NCBI RefSeq assembly: GCF_007671685.1
Contig: NZ_VCNL01000004.1
Span: forward strand, 62,001 to 126,000
Reading direction: 5' to 3'
Length of the DNA stretch: 64,000 bases
Source: Halorubrum salsamenti
Lineage (GTDB): Archaea; Halobacteriota; Halobacteria; Halobacteriales; Haloferacaceae
The position numbers and the translations under genes are program-made. Each line of letters begins with the position of its first letter. Position 1 is the first letter of the stretch. The notes under the pieces were generated by a model. The model was not told the origin of the DNA. It searched no databases and worked only from the letters and a program-made list of their open reading frames with translations. Below are positions 21,306 to 29,731 of this stretch, piece after piece.

Positions 21306-22472
21306 GTGAAATTCCAACTTACCGAAGATCAACAGCGACTCCGCGATGAAGTCCGTCAGTACGCACAGGACGAAATCAGACCGCAGGCAACCGAACTGGA
21401 CCAAGCTGAGGAACATCCGACAGAGATCCTCAATGAGCTCGGCGAGCGTGGATACACGGGGATCACCATCCCAGAAACATACGGTGGAATGGGTGAAGGG
21501 ATGGTAGAACTCGCGCTTATGACCGAGGAACTCGCTGCGGCACTCATGCCTGTTGCAGGTGCAGTGGCATTACATCTCGGCGTGGCGGAGGTCATCCAGC
21601 GGTTTGGAACCGACGAACAGCGTGATACGTACTTGCCGTCGATGGCCTCCTACGACACCGTCGGTGTCCTCGGAATGAGTGAGCAGAACGCCGGGAGTAA
21701 CAAATTGGAAATGGAGACGACCGCCAAGCGGAAAGGCGACGAGTGGGTTCTGAACGGACACAAGCAGTGGCTCACCAACTTTCAGGATGGCGATTACGTC
21801 CTCACGTACGCGAAAACCGGCCCAGAGGGTGAACGTCCCCACAATATCTCCGCGTTCCTTGTCTCAACCGATAGGTTCGACGTGGAGAAGGTCTGGGATA
21901 CGCTTGGCTCTCAAACGGTGAAATCACCGAGAGGTGCCCTCAAAGATGTTCATGTTCCGGATCGACAGAGGATCGGAGAGGTGGGAGAGGCATACGTCCA
22001 GCGCGGGCAGCTCCAGACGGGAGTGAACGTGCCCGCTCGCGGCGTCGGAATCGCGCGCGCCGCACTCGATGACACGGTCGCGTACACCAGTCAACGAAAG
22101 CAGTTCGACCACTCCATCGGTGACTTTCAGGGTGTTAAGTGGAAGGTTGGCGAGATGGCACAGCGGGTAGATACCGCACGACTGCTGACGCTGCGTGCAG
22201 CGGATTGTGCTGACCGGGGTCACGACACGACCCGAGAGTTCAGCATGGCAAAGGTGTTTGCGACACAGGCAGCCGTAGACAACGCAAACGAAGCAATGCA
22301 ACTTCACGGCGGCATCGGCTACACGACGGAAACACACGTGGAGCGGTATCTCCGAGACGCGCGACTGCTGACGATTGCTGGCGGACCCAACGAAGGACAC
22401 AAGGACACTGTCGCTGCGGCTGTGTACGACGATCATCCAACGTGGGACTCGAACCATGACCGAGACATTTGA
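21306..22472 (+). CDS. Acyl-CoA dehydrogenase
   Basis: A full-length 388-residue FAD enzyme. Signatures: LGMSEQNAGSNKLEMETTAK for the FAD/substrate-binding beta domain and MQLHGGIGYTTETHVERYLRDARL near the C-terminus. It introduces an alpha,beta double bond into an acyl-CoA, passing electrons to ETF. The GTG start at 21306 gives the usual N-terminus FQLTEDQQRLRDEV. Its end overlaps the start of the PLP enzyme gene by 17 bp, so the two are coupled; the pairing of acyl-CoA oxidation with sulfur amino acid breakdown is suggestive of Met or homocysteine catabolism. Confidence 0.9.
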   Translation: MKFQLTEDQQRLRDEVRQYAQDEIRPQATELDQAEEHPTEILNELGERGYTGITIPETYGGMGEGMVELALMTEELAAALMPVAGAVALHLGVAEVIQRFGTDEQRDTYLPSMASYDTVGVLGMSEQNAGSNKLEMETTAKRKGDEWVLNGHKQWLTNFQDGDYVLTYAKTGPEGERPHNISAFLVSTDRFDVEKVWDTLGSQTVKSPRGALKDVHVPDRQRIGEVGEAYVQRGQLQTGVNVPARGVGIARAALDDTVAYTSQRKQFDHSIGDFQGVKWKVGEMAQRVDTARLLTLRAADCADRGHDTTREFSMAKVFATQAAVDNANEAMQLHGGIGYTTETHVERYLRDARLLTIAGGPNEGHKDTVAAAVYDDHPTWDSNHDRDI

Positions 22473-23631
22473 GTTCGCAACTGAAGCGGTTCATCGCGGT
22501 GAAACGGGTGGTGAACAGCAGTATCTCTCGGGGGACGTCGTTTCACCGATTCACTTGGCTACACACCACGAAATGGAGGCTCCTGGGGAGCCGAAAAACG
22601 GATACAAGTATGCCCGGTTCGGAAATCCGACCCGGGACGCATTGGAATCGCGGCTCGCTCACCTCACGGGTGGATCAGAAGCTATTGCGTTCAATTCCGG
22701 GACGGCAGCGATAACGACGACCGCCCTCGCGCTCTGTGACCCGGGCGATCACCTCATAGCGTTCGACGGTGTGTATGGTGGCACGAGGTTGCTTCTTGAT
22801 GACTTATTCGGGGACGTGTTGGGCGTCGAAGTGGAGTACGTGGACGCAAGAAGCCCTGAAACCGTCAAGGAGCACATCAAATCAGATACGGCCCTCTTCT
22901 GGATGGAGTCTCCTACGAATCCGCTGCTGAAGATATGTGATATCGCTGAACTGGCCGACGTCGCTGATGCGCACGAAATCCCGCTATGCGTGGATAACAC
23001 GTTTGCGACGCCGTATTTACAACAACCACTGGAATTGGGTGCCGACGTGGTCGTTCATAGTACGACAAAATACCTAAACGGTCACAGTGACTCGACAGGC
23101 GGTGCCGTCGCCACGGATGATCCGGAGATAGCAGACAGGGTTTCGACGCTACAAGAATACGTCTTCGGGAACACATTATCGCCATTCGACGCTTACCTCG
23201 TGCTACGAGGGGCGAAGACGCTCCCACTGAGGATGGAGCAACACGAAGCGAACGCTCAGACGATCGCGGAGTTCCTCGCTGACCATCCCAAGATACGGGA
23301 AGTTCACTATCCGGGACTCGAATCGCATCCTCAACACAACCTCGCTAGACAACAAATGGACGGATTCGGGGGAATTGTTTCGTTCGAATTGGAAGCTTCG
23401 GAAGCCGAAACTAGGGCCTTCATCGAGGGATTAGACGTATTCACCGTAGCTGTGAGCCTTGGCGGAGTCGAATCCCTCGTTGACCATCCATGGACGATGT
23501 CTGCATCATTTATTTCTCCAGAAGAACGTCGTGCTGCGGGAGTCTCCGACTCGTTAGTCAGAATGCCAGTAGGTATTGAGGATAGTACTGATTTAATTCA
23601 GGATATTAAACAATCAATCTCTCTGTTGTAA
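22456..23631 (+). CDS. Cys/Met-metabolism PLP-dependent enzyme (cystathionine gamma-synthase/lyase or methionine gamma-lyase)
   Basis: A 391-residue fold-type I PLP enzyme. The Schiff-base lysine is in VVVHSTTKYLNGHSDSTGG; YARFGNPTR binds PLP phosphate across the dimer; IAFNSGTAAITT and VDNTFATPYLQQP are further cofactor contacts. Members carry out trans-sulfuration or C-S bond cleavage; which reaction applies cannot be decided by eye. The ATG at 22456 is chosen because it gives the expected N-terminus FATEAVHRGE; the longer frame from 22375 lies entirely in the acyl-CoA dehydrogenase gene. Confidence 0.88.
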   Translation: MTETFEFATEAVHRGETGGEQQYLSGDVVSPIHLATHHEMEAPGEPKNGYKYARFGNPTRDALESRLAHLTGGSEAIAFNSGTAAITTTALALCDPGDHLIAFDGVYGGTRLLLDDLFGDVLGVEVEYVDARSPETVKEHIKSDTALFWMESPTNPLLKICDIAELADVADAHEIPLCVDNTFATPYLQQPLELGADVVVHSTTKYLNGHSDSTGGAVATDDPEIADRVSTLQEYVFGNTLSPFDAYLVLRGAKTLPLRMEQHEANAQTIAEFLADHPKIREVHYPGLESHPQHNLARQQMDGFGGIVSFELEASEAETRAFIEGLDVFTVAVSLGGVESLVDHPWTMSASFISPEERRAAGVSDSLVRMPVGIEDSTDLIQDIKQSISLL

Positions 23632-23700: not shown

Positions 23701-23958
23701 ATGACGACTGAGACTGATGATCGAGGGAGGATTTACCTCTCGAAGGATCTCCGGGATCGTCACGGCGAGCGGTTCCGCGTGGTTGATCTGCCGAGTCGGA
23801 GCGTGCTCGTTCCCGTTGATGACGACCCGCTTCAGGCGGTCCGTGAGAGCGTGGGCCCAGCGTTCGAGGGGAAGGATATTGATGAGTTTCGTGAAGACGC
23901 GCGGGCGGCGAACGCGGAGGAGGCCCGCCGAGAAACCGTGGAGAAGTCTGACATGTGA
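23701..23958 (+). CDS. vapB: AbrB/VapB-type antitoxin
   Basis: An 85-residue protein starting with an AbrB-like swapped-hairpin domain (TDDRGRIYLSKDLRDRHGERFRVVDL) that binds operator DNA, followed by an acidic helical tail (IDEFREDARAANAEEARRE) that would wrap the toxin. Its stop codon overlaps the toxin start (GTG at 23955). This gene order and overlap are standard for VapBC pairs and imply self-repression by the complex. Confidence 0.82.
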   Translation: MTTETDDRGRIYLSKDLRDRHGERFRVVDLPSRSVLVPVDDDPLQAVRESVGPAFEGKDIDEFREDARAANAEEARRETVEKSDM

Positions 23959-24356
23959 CGGCGACGTACGTTGAAACCGATTTTCTCTTCGCCGTGGCGA
24001 AACCCGACGACTGGCTGAGCGAGGAAGTTGAGGCGGTCCTCGCCGAGGAACCCGTCGAAACGTCGCTGCTCGCGTATGCGGAGTTTCTCGTCGCCACGTA
24101 CACGGAATACGACGAGTCCGAGTTTGAGGTGACACCGCTCGTTGCGAACATGCTTGATTTGGTTCCGCTGCCGTCACCGGAAGAAGAGGAACTGCTGCTC
24201 GCGGCGGCAACGTATCTCGATGACCACGATCTCACGCCGTTCGACGCGCTTCACGCGGCACACGCCGCGACGCGCCACGGCGGCGCGCTCATCGGCTCCG
24301 ACCGTGCGTACGACCGACTGTCTGATCTTGACTGTCGGCCGCTCACTCCCGACTAA
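23955..24356 (+). CDS. vapC: PIN-domain toxin (VapC type)
   Basis: A 133-residue PIN nuclease. Acidic active-site residues are apparent in VETDFLFAVAKPDDW (first Asp), SLLAYAEFLV (Glu), FDALHAAHAA (Asp) and IGSDRAYDRL (last Asp). These bind Mg2+/Mn2+ for RNA cleavage, usually of tRNA or rRNA. Translation starts with GTG inside the antitoxin stop. It opens the conflict-gene island. Confidence 0.85.
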   Translation: MTATYVETDFLFAVAKPDDWLSEEVEAVLAEEPVETSLLAYAEFLVATYTEYDESEFEVTPLVANMLDLVPLPSPEEEELLLAAATYLDDHDLTPFDALHAAHAATRHGGALIGSDRAYDRLSDLDCRPLTPD

Positions 24357-24535: not shown

Positions 24536-24598
24536 AATCTCTCAGATATGCTACGTATTGCACAAGCTATACCCGGGTTTGCTACGCAGCGGTATTAC

Positions 24599-24928
24599 AT
24601 GACGACACTTCGGAGCCGATTGTCGCAGCTCACCGAGCCTGACGCCGAAGCGGCTGAACAGACGCGTGACGCGCTGCTTTCTGAACTCGATGTTCCGACG
24701 GACTGGACAGTGGCTGAAACGGACGTCGAAATCGCGCAGGACGGAACGGGAGACTGGTTTCTCGTGGCGTTCGAGCACCGGTCGGATCGGGAGAAGCGAG
24801 CGTCCGTCTTTCTGCTTGCGGACTCGCACGGGTTACAGGTCTACGTCGAATCTGCTGATACCGATCACTGGAGCGACCCGACGCGAGACGCCATGGAGAT
24901 CTCGGAGACACTTCGCGGCCACGCGTGA
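24599..24928 (+). CDS. Hypothetical protein, 109 aa
   Basis: A small soluble acidic protein (MTTLRSRLSQLTEPDAEAAE...). It has a helical N-terminus followed by beta strands (GDWFLVAFEHRSD, RASVFLLADSHGLQVYV). The ATG at 24599 is preferred to the one at 24548, which adds a non-acidic leader. No motif is recognised. It lies alone between the toxin pair and the convergent CBS-HEPN gene. Confidence 0.5.
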   Translation: MTTLRSRLSQLTEPDAEAAEQTRDALLSELDVPTDWTVAETDVEIAQDGTGDWFLVAFEHRSDREKRASVFLLADSHGLQVYVESADTDHWSDPTRDAMEISETLRGHA

Positions 24929-24995: not shown

Positions 24996-25853
24996 TTACG
25001 GGTCGTTGCTAACGGGTTGAGCCGGTTCGTCTCGCGTGGTCCGCGCGCCTGGGTCGTACCCGGCGTCTTGGAGGTTCGAGAGGACGTCGTTGATGGTTTC
25101 GAGGGTGGTGTACAGGTTTTCCGTGGTGCGGCCGCTGGTGAGGAAGTCGGTGCTGTCCGTGTTTTCGACGAGGAGGTTGGCGTGCGCGACGTCGTTGCGG
25201 AGGTCGGTGATTTCGTGGAGGCGTGAGTCTGCGCTGCCTTTCGTGGTGAATCCGCAGGCCTCCCAGCAGGCTTCGACGTTGGTGACGATGGTTTCGAGCG
25301 TGGAGAACTGCGCGTAGTGGAGTTCGTCGAGCGCGACGTTGGCGGCTTGCGCGTCTTCGTGCCGGGCTTCGATGTCGTCGATTTCGTCTGGGGTGACTGG
25401 CGTGGTTTTCCAGTCCGGCTTCGTGTCGAGGACGAGTTCGCGGAGGTGTTCTTCGAGGTAGGTGATGCGGTCGAACAGGTACATGCGGGCGGGGGCGGTG
25501 TTCAGGTCGGCGCGGGTGAGGATTCCGGTGACGTGGTCGGGGCCGCCGAGGAAGTAGACGGGGGTTTCGATGAGTGCGGACAACACGGCCGTGAACGGCG
25601 TGTCGCCGCTGACCATGTAATCGATGGTAAGTGAGGTGAGGTGGTCGGCGAGCGTGGTGCCGTCGTCGTCGGTCGTGACGTCGTTTTTGTGGATGAATCC
25701 GACGGGACCGTCGTCGGCGTACACGGGGGCTGCGTCGTACCCGTTGTCGGCGAGCCACGCGGCGGCGGTGCTCGGTGGCGTGTCGTGATCGAGGTGTGCG
25801 ACGGAGTGCGTGGCGAGCTCGGCCGCGGTACAGTTGTACAGGTCACGGGGCAT
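24996..25853 (-). CDS. CBS-domain pair fused to a HEPN-like domain
   Basis: Residues 1-125 look like two CBS motifs (AAAWLADNGYDAAPVYADDGPVGFI and a weaker second one ending HVTGILTRADL), which normally bind adenine nucleotides. After a linker of charged helices, residues about 175-262 are all-helical and contain RNDVAH (219-224), the RX4H catalytic signature of HEPN ribonucleases. This suggests a nucleotide-gated RNase. The start at 25853 (MPRDLYNC) is preferred; the frame to 25949 is longer but atypical. It is divergent from the gene at 25973. The assignment is by motif only. Confidence 0.65.
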   Translation of the reverse strand: MPRDLYNCTAAELATHSVAHLDHDTPPSTAAAWLADNGYDAAPVYADDGPVGFIHKNDVTTDDDGTTLADHLTSLTIDYMVSGDTPFTAVLSALIETPVYFLGGPDHVTGILTRADLNTAPARMYLFDRITYLEEHLRELVLDTKPDWKTTPVTPDEIDDIEARHEDAQAANVALDELHYAQFSTLETIVTNVEACWEACGFTTKGSADSRLHEITDLRNDVAHANLLVENTDSTDFLTSGRTTENLYTTLETINDVLSNLQDAGYDPGARTTRDEPAQPVSNDP

Positions 25854-25941
25854 GCGAGTGAGTGTGCCAGCCGTGGTTGTGAAATTACGGGAACAGTCGC
25901 GTGAGGGTGACTGATCGAGACACCCACTCACCGCAAGCTTG

Positions 25942-25987
25942 ATGTTCAAAAAGCATATATTATTACTTGATTATGCTCAAAGGGCAT
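25942..25987. promoter_or_regulatory. Direct repeat around a divergent promoter
   Basis: atgttcaaaaagcat (25942-25956) recurs 31 bp later as atgctcaaagggcat (25973-25987), 12 of 15 bases the same. Between them is an A+T-rich catatattattac, a possible TATA element. The second copy contains the start codon of the plus-strand gene. Binding here could control both the CBS-HEPN gene and its divergent neighbour. Confidence 0.4.
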
Positions 25988-26317
25988 TTCTCGTCGGCGG
26001 GGGCGAGTATCGAGTACGGGGATGCGAAGTGTCTGTTCCCGGTCGGCGAGCTGGATGCGACGGTGCTCCAGTATCGAGATGCCCAACTCGCGCTTGACGG
26101 TGCCGACGGAGCGAGCGTCATCGTCATCGCGCCGACGAGCCTCGCAACGAGTTACCACCTCACCCAACACACGCTGACCGCGATTCACGTCGAGAGCCTC
26201 CCCCGCGCAGTCCGCAGAGAGATCGACGCCGCGATCGATGCGTTCGAACTCATCCAGGTCGGGAAATGGAACAGTGACAGCCGGAACCACTCGCTCGCTG
26301 AATTCGCCGACGCCTGA
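25973..26317 (+). CDS. Hypothetical protein, 114 aa
   Basis: A compact protein with alternating strands and helices (KCLFPVGELDATVLQYRDAQLAL, SVIVIAPTSLATSYHL). No motif is recognised. The ATG at 25973 is chosen over 25967, as it follows the A+T-rich box at leaderless distance. The next gene starts 11 bp after its stop, suggesting an operon. Confidence 0.5.
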   Translation: MLKGHFSSAGASIEYGDAKCLFPVGELDATVLQYRDAQLALDGADGASVIVIAPTSLATSYHLTQHTLTAIHVESLPRAVRREIDAAIDAFELIQVGKWNSDSRNHSLAEFADA

Positions 26318-26328
26318 CCTGTAATTCA

Positions 26329-26598
26329 ATGACCGAGTCATTCGCTGACGAGTACCCGGAAGCGGCCCCGTATATTCAGAAGGCCGTCGACGAGCACGGC
26401 GAAGACTGGGTGTTGGAGCACTACTACGAGCAACTCTACCCGCTCGGGCAAGTGATGGCGATGCCGGAAAAAGAGGAACTCCCGTTCTACGATGCGGACG
26501 AACACGAGACGATGACGGAGGAGGAACGCGTGGAGATGTATCAGGCGTGGGCGGAGTACCGAGAGAATCTCCGCACGGGAACGAAGCCCGGCGAGTGA
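26329..26598 (+). CDS. Hypothetical acidic protein, 89 aa
   Basis: Very acidic and helical (DEYPEAAPYIQKAVDEHGEDWVLEHYYEQL). No domain is recognised. It is 11 bp downstream of the previous gene and 42 bp before the ADP-ribosylglycohydrolase gene, so all three may be co-transcribed. It could be a small partner protein of either neighbour, which is a guess. Confidence 0.5.
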   Translation: MTESFADEYPEAAPYIQKAVDEHGEDWVLEHYYEQLYPLGQVMAMPEKEELPFYDADEHETMTEEERVEMYQAWAEYRENLRTGTKPGE

Positions 26599-26640: not shown

Positions 26641-27549
26641 ATGGACTCAGATCGAGTGCGGGGTGTGCTGCTCGGGTTGGCGTGCGGGGATGCGCTTGGC
26701 CGGCCGGTCGAATTCCAGTCTGCGTCCGCGATTCAACGAGAACACGGGCGACTCGACGAGATGGTCGGGCACGGCACGTGGAACCAGCCGGCGGGGACGA
26801 TCACGGACGACACCGAACAGGCGCTGTGTATCGCGCGGAGTCTCGCCGACCACGAGGAGTTCGACCCGGCGGACGTCGCTGAGCGGTTCGTCGCGTGGTA
26901 CGAGACCGGTCCGTTCGACATCGGCAGGATGACGAGACGATCGCTCGACCGGCTCAAACGCGGTGAAGCGTGGGACGCGGCAGGCCAGCGCGTGTGGGAG
27001 CAAAGCCGGGAAGGGCAGAACGCAGGGAACGGGAGCGTGATGCGGTGTGCGCCGCTCGCCATTCCATACGCGAGTGACTGGGATCGACTTGTGGAAGTGA
27101 GTCGGCAATCCTCGCAGATCACGCACGCTGATCCGCGGTGTACGTACGGGTGTGCGATTCTGAATCTCACACTAGCTGGCCTGCTCGAAGATGCGGACAC
27201 GCCGTTGCAGGATGCCCTCAACTACGTCGGTTCGGACGCGCCTGATGAGCTTGTGACAGCGCTCGAACCACTCGTTCGTGGCGACTCGCCCAGCACGCTG
27301 GAGACGTCGGGATACGTCGTGCATTCGCTGCAGACGGCACTCCACGATGGCTTCGTCGCGGATAGTGCCGAGGACGCCATTGTGACGGCAGTGAATCGCG
27401 GCGGTGATACGGACACGATTGGCGCGATTGCGGGCGCAGTCGCTGGGGCGCGGTTCGGGGCCTCACAGCTTCCGGATCGATGGCTGGGTGCTATCGACGA
27501 GGTCAACGAACTCGAAGGACTGGCAACCCAGCTTACCGACGTAGGGTAA
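26641..27549 (+). CDS. ADP-ribosylglycohydrolase (DraG/ARH family)
   Basis: A 302-residue all-helical hydrolase with both metal-binding motifs of the family: GTITDDTEQALCIA (two Asp and Thr) and VNRGGDTDTIGAIAGAVAGA at the C-terminus. It also has the N-terminal LGLACGDALGRPVEF. It releases ADP-ribose from modified proteins, nucleic acids or small molecules using two Mg2+ or Mn2+ ions. No ADP-ribosyltransferase is recognisable nearby. The gene downstream is Fic/Doc-like, raising the possibility of a modification/demodification pair, although Fic proteins normally transfer nucleotide monophosphates. Confidence 0.9.
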   Translation: MDSDRVRGVLLGLACGDALGRPVEFQSASAIQREHGRLDEMVGHGTWNQPAGTITDDTEQALCIARSLADHEEFDPADVAERFVAWYETGPFDIGRMTRRSLDRLKRGEAWDAAGQRVWEQSREGQNAGNGSVMRCAPLAIPYASDWDRLVEVSRQSSQITHADPRCTYGCAILNLTLAGLLEDADTPLQDALNYVGSDAPDELVTALEPLVRGDSPSTLETSGYVVHSLQTALHDGFVADSAEDAIVTAVNRGGDTDTIGAIAGAVAGARFGASQLPDRWLGAIDEVNELEGLATQLTDVG

Positions 27550-27621: not shown

Positions 27622-28470
27622 ATGACTGCCTGTGTCTATTACCATCATCCCGAGGATTCTCAGTATTCTCTCGCGTACGTTACTCAGGACAGGGATGAGA
27701 TAACGACGTCCGGGCGAGATGCAATTATTGAGCAGTACGATCTGGATGAGGAATTCTTCGTACTGTATACGAATCGCGGGGCGAGCGGTACGGTCGAGGA
27801 CCTTGATGACGAATTTGAAGATGTACTCGATGAGATGTCGCCACAGAACCGGACGATTACGGTGCGGTTGCTTCAGATCTTCGAGGAGATCATCGAGGAA
27901 AAGGAACTGGAGGAGGAAGCGATGCTCGATATTTACAAGCAGATCGAATTAGAGCGGATTCCTGACGCTCTTGCACGCGTTGATTGGACCGGTACCGCCA
28001 TCGATGTCGCAGGGCAGCTTATGTCTACACTCATTCTGAAACACGCGCTGCCCAACGCGAATCACCGGACATCGATCAGTATGGCTCAATGGTATCTGGA
28101 GAGCATCGAAACCGGGTTTTCTTTCCCTGACTTTGCGACCGAAGAGTACGACTGGAAGACGTGGGTCAACGAGTACATTACCGAGTCGAAGCGGCTTCTC
28201 ACGGTTCGGCGGAATACGACGGCATTCTCGTTACTCTCTGAGTGGGGGTGTGGCACCGTTATGCGGAAGAATGGCATCGAGATCGTTCTTGCAGAGTATG
28301 ACCTCGATTTTACTCGTTCAGAGGCCTACGCGTACTATGGTGACGTACATACAGAGCTCTGTACGGACTTCCTTATTGAATCTGTTACCCGTGCTGGGCA
28401 CGAGGAACTTATCACTACCGAGGGTATTGGAAAAGCGGAATTCGTCTCGTTCCTCGATGAGGCAGAATAA
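27622..28470 (+). CDS. Fic/Doc-like protein
   Basis: A 282-residue protein. Residues 141-149 read HALPNANHR, which keeps the His, Asn and Arg positions of the Fic/Doc motif (HPFxxGNGR in Fic, HxFxDxNKR in Doc), and lie in a helical context that fits the family (STLILK before, SISMAQWYLES after). Such enzymes transfer a phosphate or nucleotide to a target protein. The N-terminal 110 residues are acidic and helical and may be inhibitory. The remainder is unrecognised. The call rests on a short motif and is moderate. Confidence 0.5.
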   Translation: MTACVYYHHPEDSQYSLAYVTQDRDEITTSGRDAIIEQYDLDEEFFVLYTNRGASGTVEDLDDEFEDVLDEMSPQNRTITVRLLQIFEEIIEEKELEEEAMLDIYKQIELERIPDALARVDWTGTAIDVAGQLMSTLILKHALPNANHRTSISMAQWYLESIETGFSFPDFATEEYDWKTWVNEYITESKRLLTVRRNTTAFSLLSEWGCGTVMRKNGIEIVLAEYDLDFTRSEAYAYYGDVHTELCTDFLIESVTRAGHEELITTEGIGKAEFVSFLDEAE

Positions 28471-28897: not shown

Positions 28898-29731
28898 ATG
28901 GGGTCAACAAACGGCGTAGAGATTCAACGAAAGAGCTTGTCGACGCGCGAGGCGCAGGCGCTGTCACGGCTCGCAAGCGAGAATCGGCAGGTCATCAGTA
29001 TTAGTGACATCGCGGACGCGCTCGACATTCCGCGGAAGTCGGCCAAGGACATGGCGTATGCGCTCAAGGAGAAAGGATGGCTTGAGCGGATCGCGCAGGG
29101 GAAATACCTGATTCTACCGCTCGCTGCAGGTAAAAACGCCGTGTATACCGCACACGAGTTCGTGATCGCGTCAGCACTCGTGGAGCCGATGTACATCGGG
29201 TACTGAAGCGCGTTGAATCACCACGGATTGACAGAGCAGATGTCCCGCACGGTGTACATCGTGACGACAGAGCGCGCTAAGGAGCGTGAAATCCACGGGG
29301 TCACGTACCGTCCGGTGACGATCACGGAGCAGAAGTTCTTCGGGTATCAACCGACTGCGGTCGGGTCGAATCAAGTGAACATATCGAGTATCGAAAAGAC
29401 GCTGGTCGATTGCGCCGACCATCCGGAGTTCTGCGGGGGTATCAGCGAGCTTGCGAAGGCGATGCAGAACGCTGTCGATACGTGCTGTTCGTGGGACCGC
29501 GTCGTCGAGTACCTGCGACAGATTGGGAACGGTGCCGCGACGAAACGACTCGTGTATCTCGCCGATCAGTTGGACATCGATCTTCCGGAGTACCGGGACC
29601 TCGTCGAGGACTTCACGACCGGGTACCCGCTGCTCGACCCGACGAGGGAAGCGACGGGAACCCGGGACAGCACGTACCAACTCCGTCTGAACGTTGACCC
29701 CGAATCGGTTCTGCTTGGTGACTTCTCGTGA
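28898..29731 (+). pseudogene. AbiEi-type antitoxin gene with an in-frame stop
   Basis: The first part (codons 1-102) holds a winged helix (VISISDIADALDIPRKSAKDMAYALKEKGWLERI) and the beginning of the AbiEi domain, stopping with TGA at 29204-29206 in EPMYIGY-stop-SALNHHGL. The frame continues without shift to 29731 with the rest of the domain (VTITEQKFFGYQ, SIEKTLVDCADHPEFCGG). The family has Trp at this point, so a single TGG to TGA change explains the break. AbiEi normally represses its operon and neutralises the AbiEii nucleotidyltransferase. The 3' part could restart at 29213 but would lack the DNA-binding domain. Confidence 0.8.

Follow-up and report, generated by a model that had tools for sequence, protein, structure and literature searches.

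A haloarchaeal CBS-HEPN protein, a predicted nucleotide-gated ribonuclease, and its divergently encoded partner u116

The locus analyzed here raises two connected questions, namely whether a haloarchaeal protein in which two CBS domains precede a HEPN-type helical bundle could function as a nucleotide-gated ribonuclease, as an earlier note on this DNA proposed, and whether such a protein would act alone. The gene resides in the window, that is, the entire stretch of 64,000 nucleotides that was analyzed, and is present as a single copy in its genome (haloarchaeal, 3.67 Mb draft, contig 16). The fusion itself has been described before. Proteins that join CBS to HEPN were already reported in 2013, with the proposal that they are RNases responsive to nucleotides (PMC3710099). 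DS-11, which consists of a single CBS-HEPN protein, followed in 2026 and was shown to defend E. coli against phage (PMC13092281), so that the hypothesis of the earlier note has direct precedent. The defense conferred by DS-11 is abolished by Y157A, a mutation in the CBS part at a predicted adenine contact, or by mutations of the HEPN catalytic residues, and the activating ligand of DS-11 is undiscovered (PMC13092281). What is new, also relative to the earlier note, is the setting of the CBS-HEPN gene with an obligate partner, its divergent neighbor u116. The features of the protein are the following.

24996-25853, minus strand: CBS-CBS-HEPN protein, 285 aa, with the putative RNase motif R219/N220/H224, E134xxxR138 and G110xxT113xxD116
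25500-25823, minus strand: tandem CBS pair, residues ~11-118 (Pfam CBS at 11-59; strands and helices of the model; Foldseek matches)
25065-25496, minus strand: HEPN-type helical bundle, residues ~120-263 (model helices; HEPN-clan profile matches)
25182-25199, minus strand: codons of R219-N-D-V-A-H224 (ORF translation)

The 285-aa minus-strand open reading frame (24996-25853) and the two N-terminal CBS motifs previously read from it are borne out. CBS1 (residues 11-59) scores above the Pfam CBS cut-off (PF00571, E=3e-6); CBS2 (~76-118, with GILTRAD at 110-116) falls under the Pfam threshold but is clear in the model and in the alignment. The ligand motif G-h-h-T/S-x-x-D is present as G110-I-L-T113-R-A-D116, a classical nucleotide-binding signature of CBS repeats, and the corresponding T position of CBS1 is occupied by H55. 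Conservation of the motifs was counted over 40 homologues, with the lowest identity to the query at 18%. T113 and D116 are each retained in 39/40, and Y100, kept in 36/40, is a candidate counterpart of Y157 in DS-11. The C-terminal RX4H motif that the earlier note reported is indeed R219-N-D-V-A-H224, correctly numbered there; R219 and H224 are identical in all 40 homologues and, given that several of these are only 18-21% identical to the query, the motif is not a chance occurrence. Position 220 is N in 39 of the 40 and D in the other, and the second HEPN motif described in PMC3710099, Ex3[KR], is represented by E134 (36/40) and R138 (35/40).

Profile searches with the 40 homologues matched several separate families of the Pfam HEPN clan, namely RiboL-PSP (24/40), Swt1 (13/40), and DUF4145, Apea and Abi_2 (3 homologues each), as well as the PADLOC profiles Csx1/Csm6 (16/40) and PDC-M34B (33/40). 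The Pfam E-values for single HEPN families are weak (best 1.3e-3 among the relatives), and the window protein itself scores 12.8 bits against RiboL-PSP-HEPN, below the curated cut-off of 28.4; this failure is not decisive because HEPN families are very diverged, as described in the part of the 2013 paper considered here (PMC3710099). Structure prediction, one of the checks suggested earlier, gave an AlphaFold2 model with pLDDT 88.7 and pTM 0.83 in which the CBS pair precedes a bundle of long helices (120-144, 155-170, 183-192, 205-223 and 244-263). R219 falls in the terminal turns of helix 205-223, and H224 comes immediately after the helix, as in a HEPN bundle; this agreement is judged by secondary structure rather than by a fold match. 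In Foldseek, the model matched CBS pairs of known structure, some of them with bound ATP or AMP, with E down to 3e-6, and a phmmer search of the HEPN part alone against the PDB gave no match. The best 50 Foldseek matches listed are all CBS folds, with no HEPN fold among them, and the HEPN call is therefore based on the motif, the helix order and the profiles. Taken with the precedents, these sequence and model data make the CBS-HEPN fusion, and the idea that it is a predicted nucleotide-gated RNase, well supported; the argument from a repeat-marked promoter, which accompanied that idea in the earlier note, fails, as detailed below.

The fusions of Anantharaman et al. 2013 (CBS-HEPN and CBS-HD-HEPN) share the domain combination and the nucleotide-sensing RNase logic, but the examples named in the part of that paper considered here are bacterial and come with no description of a partner gene, whereas the present clade is haloarchaeal and has u116 (PMC3710099). 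DS-11 (NCBIfam NF053863) is likewise a single CBS-then-HEPN polypeptide of similar length (model 305 aa) but is a single-gene system, in contrast to the present clade with its obligate divergent u116. Membership of the window protein in DS-11 is rejected, with 19.4 bits against an equivalog cut-off of 260. Weak matches to NF053863 appear in 36/40 relatives (best 1.2e-7), but the profile also picks up generic CBS proteins in 13/14 control genomes, so that such a match by itself proves little. No true DS-11 protein for direct alignment was recovered from 369 genomes, but the controls gave nothing either, so that this negative carries no weight. Csm6/Csx1 (CARF-HEPN, type III CRISPR) similarly join a nucleotide sensor to a HEPN RNase, in agreement with the PADLOC matches, although their sensor is CARF rather than CBS; no cyclase or type III locus adjoining CBS-HEPN was identified. 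Bacterial CBS-HEPN proteins of ~290-340 aa from Nitrospirota, Lysobacter and Actinomycetes (L173-L176) have the same architecture at 27-30% identity, and share the TRADLN(K/T) motif of CBS2 and R(N/D)xLxH. The phage records and viral contigs searched contain no CBS-HEPN homologue, and a viral origin is accordingly rejected.

The genes divergent from CBS-HEPN, and the region between, are these.

25854-25972, no strand: intergenic region of 119 bp between CBS-HEPN and u116, with an inverted repeat that is not supported as conserved
25973-26317, plus strand: u116, 114 aa, fold not recognized, conserved SLxE[FY] tail, divergent to CBS-HEPN
26329-26598, plus strand: u89, 89 aa, uncharacterized; often adjoins u116 in closer relatives
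26641-27549, plus strand: ADP-ribosylglycohydrolase, accessory (Pfam PF03747, E=1e-80); often comes third, behind u116 and u89

The u116 protein is 114 aa long (116 aa when begun at an upstream TTG) and shows no Pfam family, no sequence match to a solved structure and no fold match; its structure model reaches a pLDDT of only 76, and no DNA-binding fold was recognized in it. In a sample of 391 genomes of the class, 38 carry a CBS-HEPN of this clade, and u116 is present in all 38 of them (0/38 without it); another 25 genomes possess u116 in the absence of the clade CBS-HEPN. Fisher's test for this co-occurrence gives 3e-36, with shared ancestry ignored. The divergent start codons are 67-124 bp apart in 60/69 loci, a partly redundant count given that the loci come from two overlapping sets, and the layout is maintained down to ~30% u116 identity. 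Several pairs are split by insertions of ~2.1 kb (L042), ~8 kb (L035/L147) and ~12.5 kb (L143). The L042 insert, between 6880 and 9001, carries a cystathionine gamma-synthase-like gene related to the one at window positions 22447-23631; the L035 insert, between 950 and 9001, lies inside the divergent region of the pair. At four loci (L061, L065, L169, L170), u116 has diverged past single-sequence detection, and the only followed-up locus without a nearby u116 is a 31%-identical outlier (L172). Distances within the CBS-HEPN family correlate with those within the u116 family (r=0.92, and 0.80 for the close clade alone, calculated with no species-tree control), as expected for a unit that travels together. 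In the phylum sample, to which the search was confined, u116 was not found outside the order, and it is not near the distant haloarchaeal CBS-HEPN proteins.

Retention of the two genes is asymmetric. Truncated or frameshifted CBS-HEPN genes are found at the expected divergent position beside u116 at six loci (L111, L127, L137, L138, L139, L140). The SLxE[FY] tail of u116 is predicted to be disordered and yet is conserved, which suggests a binding peptide; it is kept in 24 of the 25 genomes without CBS-HEPN, and hence u116 has some role of its own. An effector always accompanied by its partner, together with a partner that can persist once the effector is lost, is the pattern expected of a toxin and its inhibitor, so the retention is antitoxin-like and u116 may be an inhibitor. 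As in type II toxin-antitoxin systems, the effector is never without the partner and the partner is sometimes alone; unlike in those systems, the genes are divergent rather than co-directional, and a shared operator repeat is unsupported. The repeat in question, GTGAGTG/CACTCAC with 7-nt arms 60 nt apart, does exist in the intergenic region, and a similar one is seen in 26 distinct relatives, but 479 of 2000 arm re-pairings covary at least as well. A conserved promoter operator is thus rejected, and the repeat-marked divergent promoter of the earlier note is not supported.

The order u116, u89, ADP-ribosylglycohydrolase is frequent, with or without CBS-HEPN, but the latter two genes are missing from most diverged pairs, which leaves CBS-HEPN and u116 as the core. 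The other flanking genes differ from locus to locus; in the window, they include the following.

23955-24356: PIN toxin
24548-24928, plus strand: d126, a small uncharacterized protein
27622-28470, plus strand: Doc/Fic-like protein with the motif H-A-L-P-N-A-N-H-R-T (NCBIfam DOC_P1, E=2e-4, below cut-off)
28898-29206 and 29213-29731, plus strand: AbiEi antitoxin split in two ORFs

The toxin-antitoxin neighbors on which the island argument of the earlier note relied are thereby confirmed in the PIN toxin, the Doc-like protein and the AbiEi pieces; for the modification genes also mentioned there, the closest candidate is the ADP-ribosylglycohydrolase. General enrichment of the surroundings in defense genes was considered and dropped, the PADLOC tally by per-family counts for 140 neighbors being not clearly different from that for 130 genes of control regions. 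At L031, the AbiEi counterpart is undivided and precedes an AbiEii toxin gene. The d126 gene is also found near the pair at L031, L032, L047, L048 and L080, in varying orientation.

A specific linkage is apparent with a Cas7-like gene. Of the 10 genomes that encode both, 6 have CBS-HEPN no more than 15 kb from this gene, against ~1% expected per genome; the resulting p=1e-10 is optimistic because the test was prompted by the observed linkage and drew on overlapping loci. The Cas7-like gene (E=0.09 against Pfam RAMP) heads a cluster of uncharacterized proteins, an RNase-H-fold exonuclease and an HNH protein. This cluster is found at nine loci (L033, L034, L035, L039, L042, L044, L062, L063, L064), 0.8-4.6 kb from CBS-HEPN. 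It resembles the description of HRAMP, a haloarchaeal CRISPR derivative (PMC8730458), and is identified with it by resemblance only. In the genome that contains the window, the Cas7-like gene is on a different contig from CBS-HEPN, and the cluster is considered a neighbor, outside the CBS-HEPN module.

The reading that we prefer, with a probability slightly above one half (about 0.55), is that CBS-HEPN is a haloarchaeal nucleotide-gated RNase defense effector with u116 as its cognate control partner. Under this scheme, binding of an adenine-type nucleotide to the tandem CBS module would turn RNA cutting by a HEPN dimer on or off, and during infection the cleavage would arrest growth or degrade the viral RNA. 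The u116 protein, probably by direct binding, would keep the RNase silent, most likely as an antitoxin-like inhibitor or as a sensor. In favor of this reading are the motif conservation, the HEPN-clan and PADLOC profile matches, the structure model, the DS-11 precedent, the constant pairing with u116, its asymmetric retention, the correlated distances and the proximity to the Cas7-like gene. Against it speak the weak E-values of single HEPN families, the Foldseek matches confined to CBS folds among the best 50, the u116 tail kept in genomes without CBS-HEPN, the absence of homologues from the phage records and viral contigs searched, and the PADLOC tally of neighbors. A bolder version, in which u116 is a new, structurally unrecognized inhibitor or infection sensor of an adenine-nucleotide-gated HEPN RNase and the divergent two-gene module cooperates with the HRAMP-like cluster, is speculative and, in our estimate, rather unlikely.

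The main competing explanation holds that CBS-HEPN is a stand-alone nucleotide-gated RNase like DS-11, with u116 being only a linked transcription regulator or a passenger of the island. DS-11 does work as one protein, distant haloarchaeal CBS-HEPN proteins lack a nearby u116, and u116 persists without CBS-HEPN; a partner found in 38 of 38 genomes, a divergent layout fixed to ~30% u116 identity, pairs that are still together after large insertions, and the lack of a recognized DNA-binding fold in u116 all argue the other way, so we regard this explanation as possible but not probable.

Two other explanations have lower probability. Patchy distribution (38/391 sampled genomes), many plasmid copies, pseudogenized copies, changing neighbors and the linkage to the Cas7-like cluster make it improbable that the protein is a housekeeping or stress regulator, that is, an energy-charge-responsive RNase that tunes RNA turnover and is unrelated to viruses, even though CBS pairs commonly sense AMP/ATP. 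The 2013 proposal, as worded in the part of that paper considered here (PMC3710099), also speaks for such a regulator. A regulatory role for the C-terminal helices, as a bundle that is catalytically inactive or not of the HEPN type, would agree with the weak single-family HEPN scores and with the best 50 Foldseek matches listed; it is very improbable in view of the invariant R and H, the N/D after R and the Ex3R motif across very diverged sequences, and of the matches to several separate HEPN families.

On the preferred reading, a nucleotide-gated effector with a control partner, the archaeal branch with its obligate, separable partner would constitute a second CBS-HEPN system beside DS-11, which to our knowledge is the one tested example of CBS-HEPN immunity. 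The u116 protein provides a handle on the question of control, that is, what keeps the RNase off and which infection signal frees it. No experiment on the haloarchaeal clade came up in our literature search, and the pair gives archaeal virology, a field in which RNase effectors of this type have rarely been tested, a concrete target.

Some haloarchaeal relatives, of ~480-500 aa, carry a methyltransferase-like N-terminus, with a weak Eco57I match and an N/DPP motif that lacks its usual aromatic residue, before CBS-CBS-HEPN. These methyltransferase-like-CBS-CBS-HEPN fusions are located as follows.

L068, 8272-9780; L069, 8299-9735; L071, 8176-9660
L072, 8995-10464; L073, 8251-9702; L079, 8926-10362

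The fusions at L072, L073 and L079 are adjacent to a large helicase and to a protein whose DrmE_C (DISARM) match falls below threshold.
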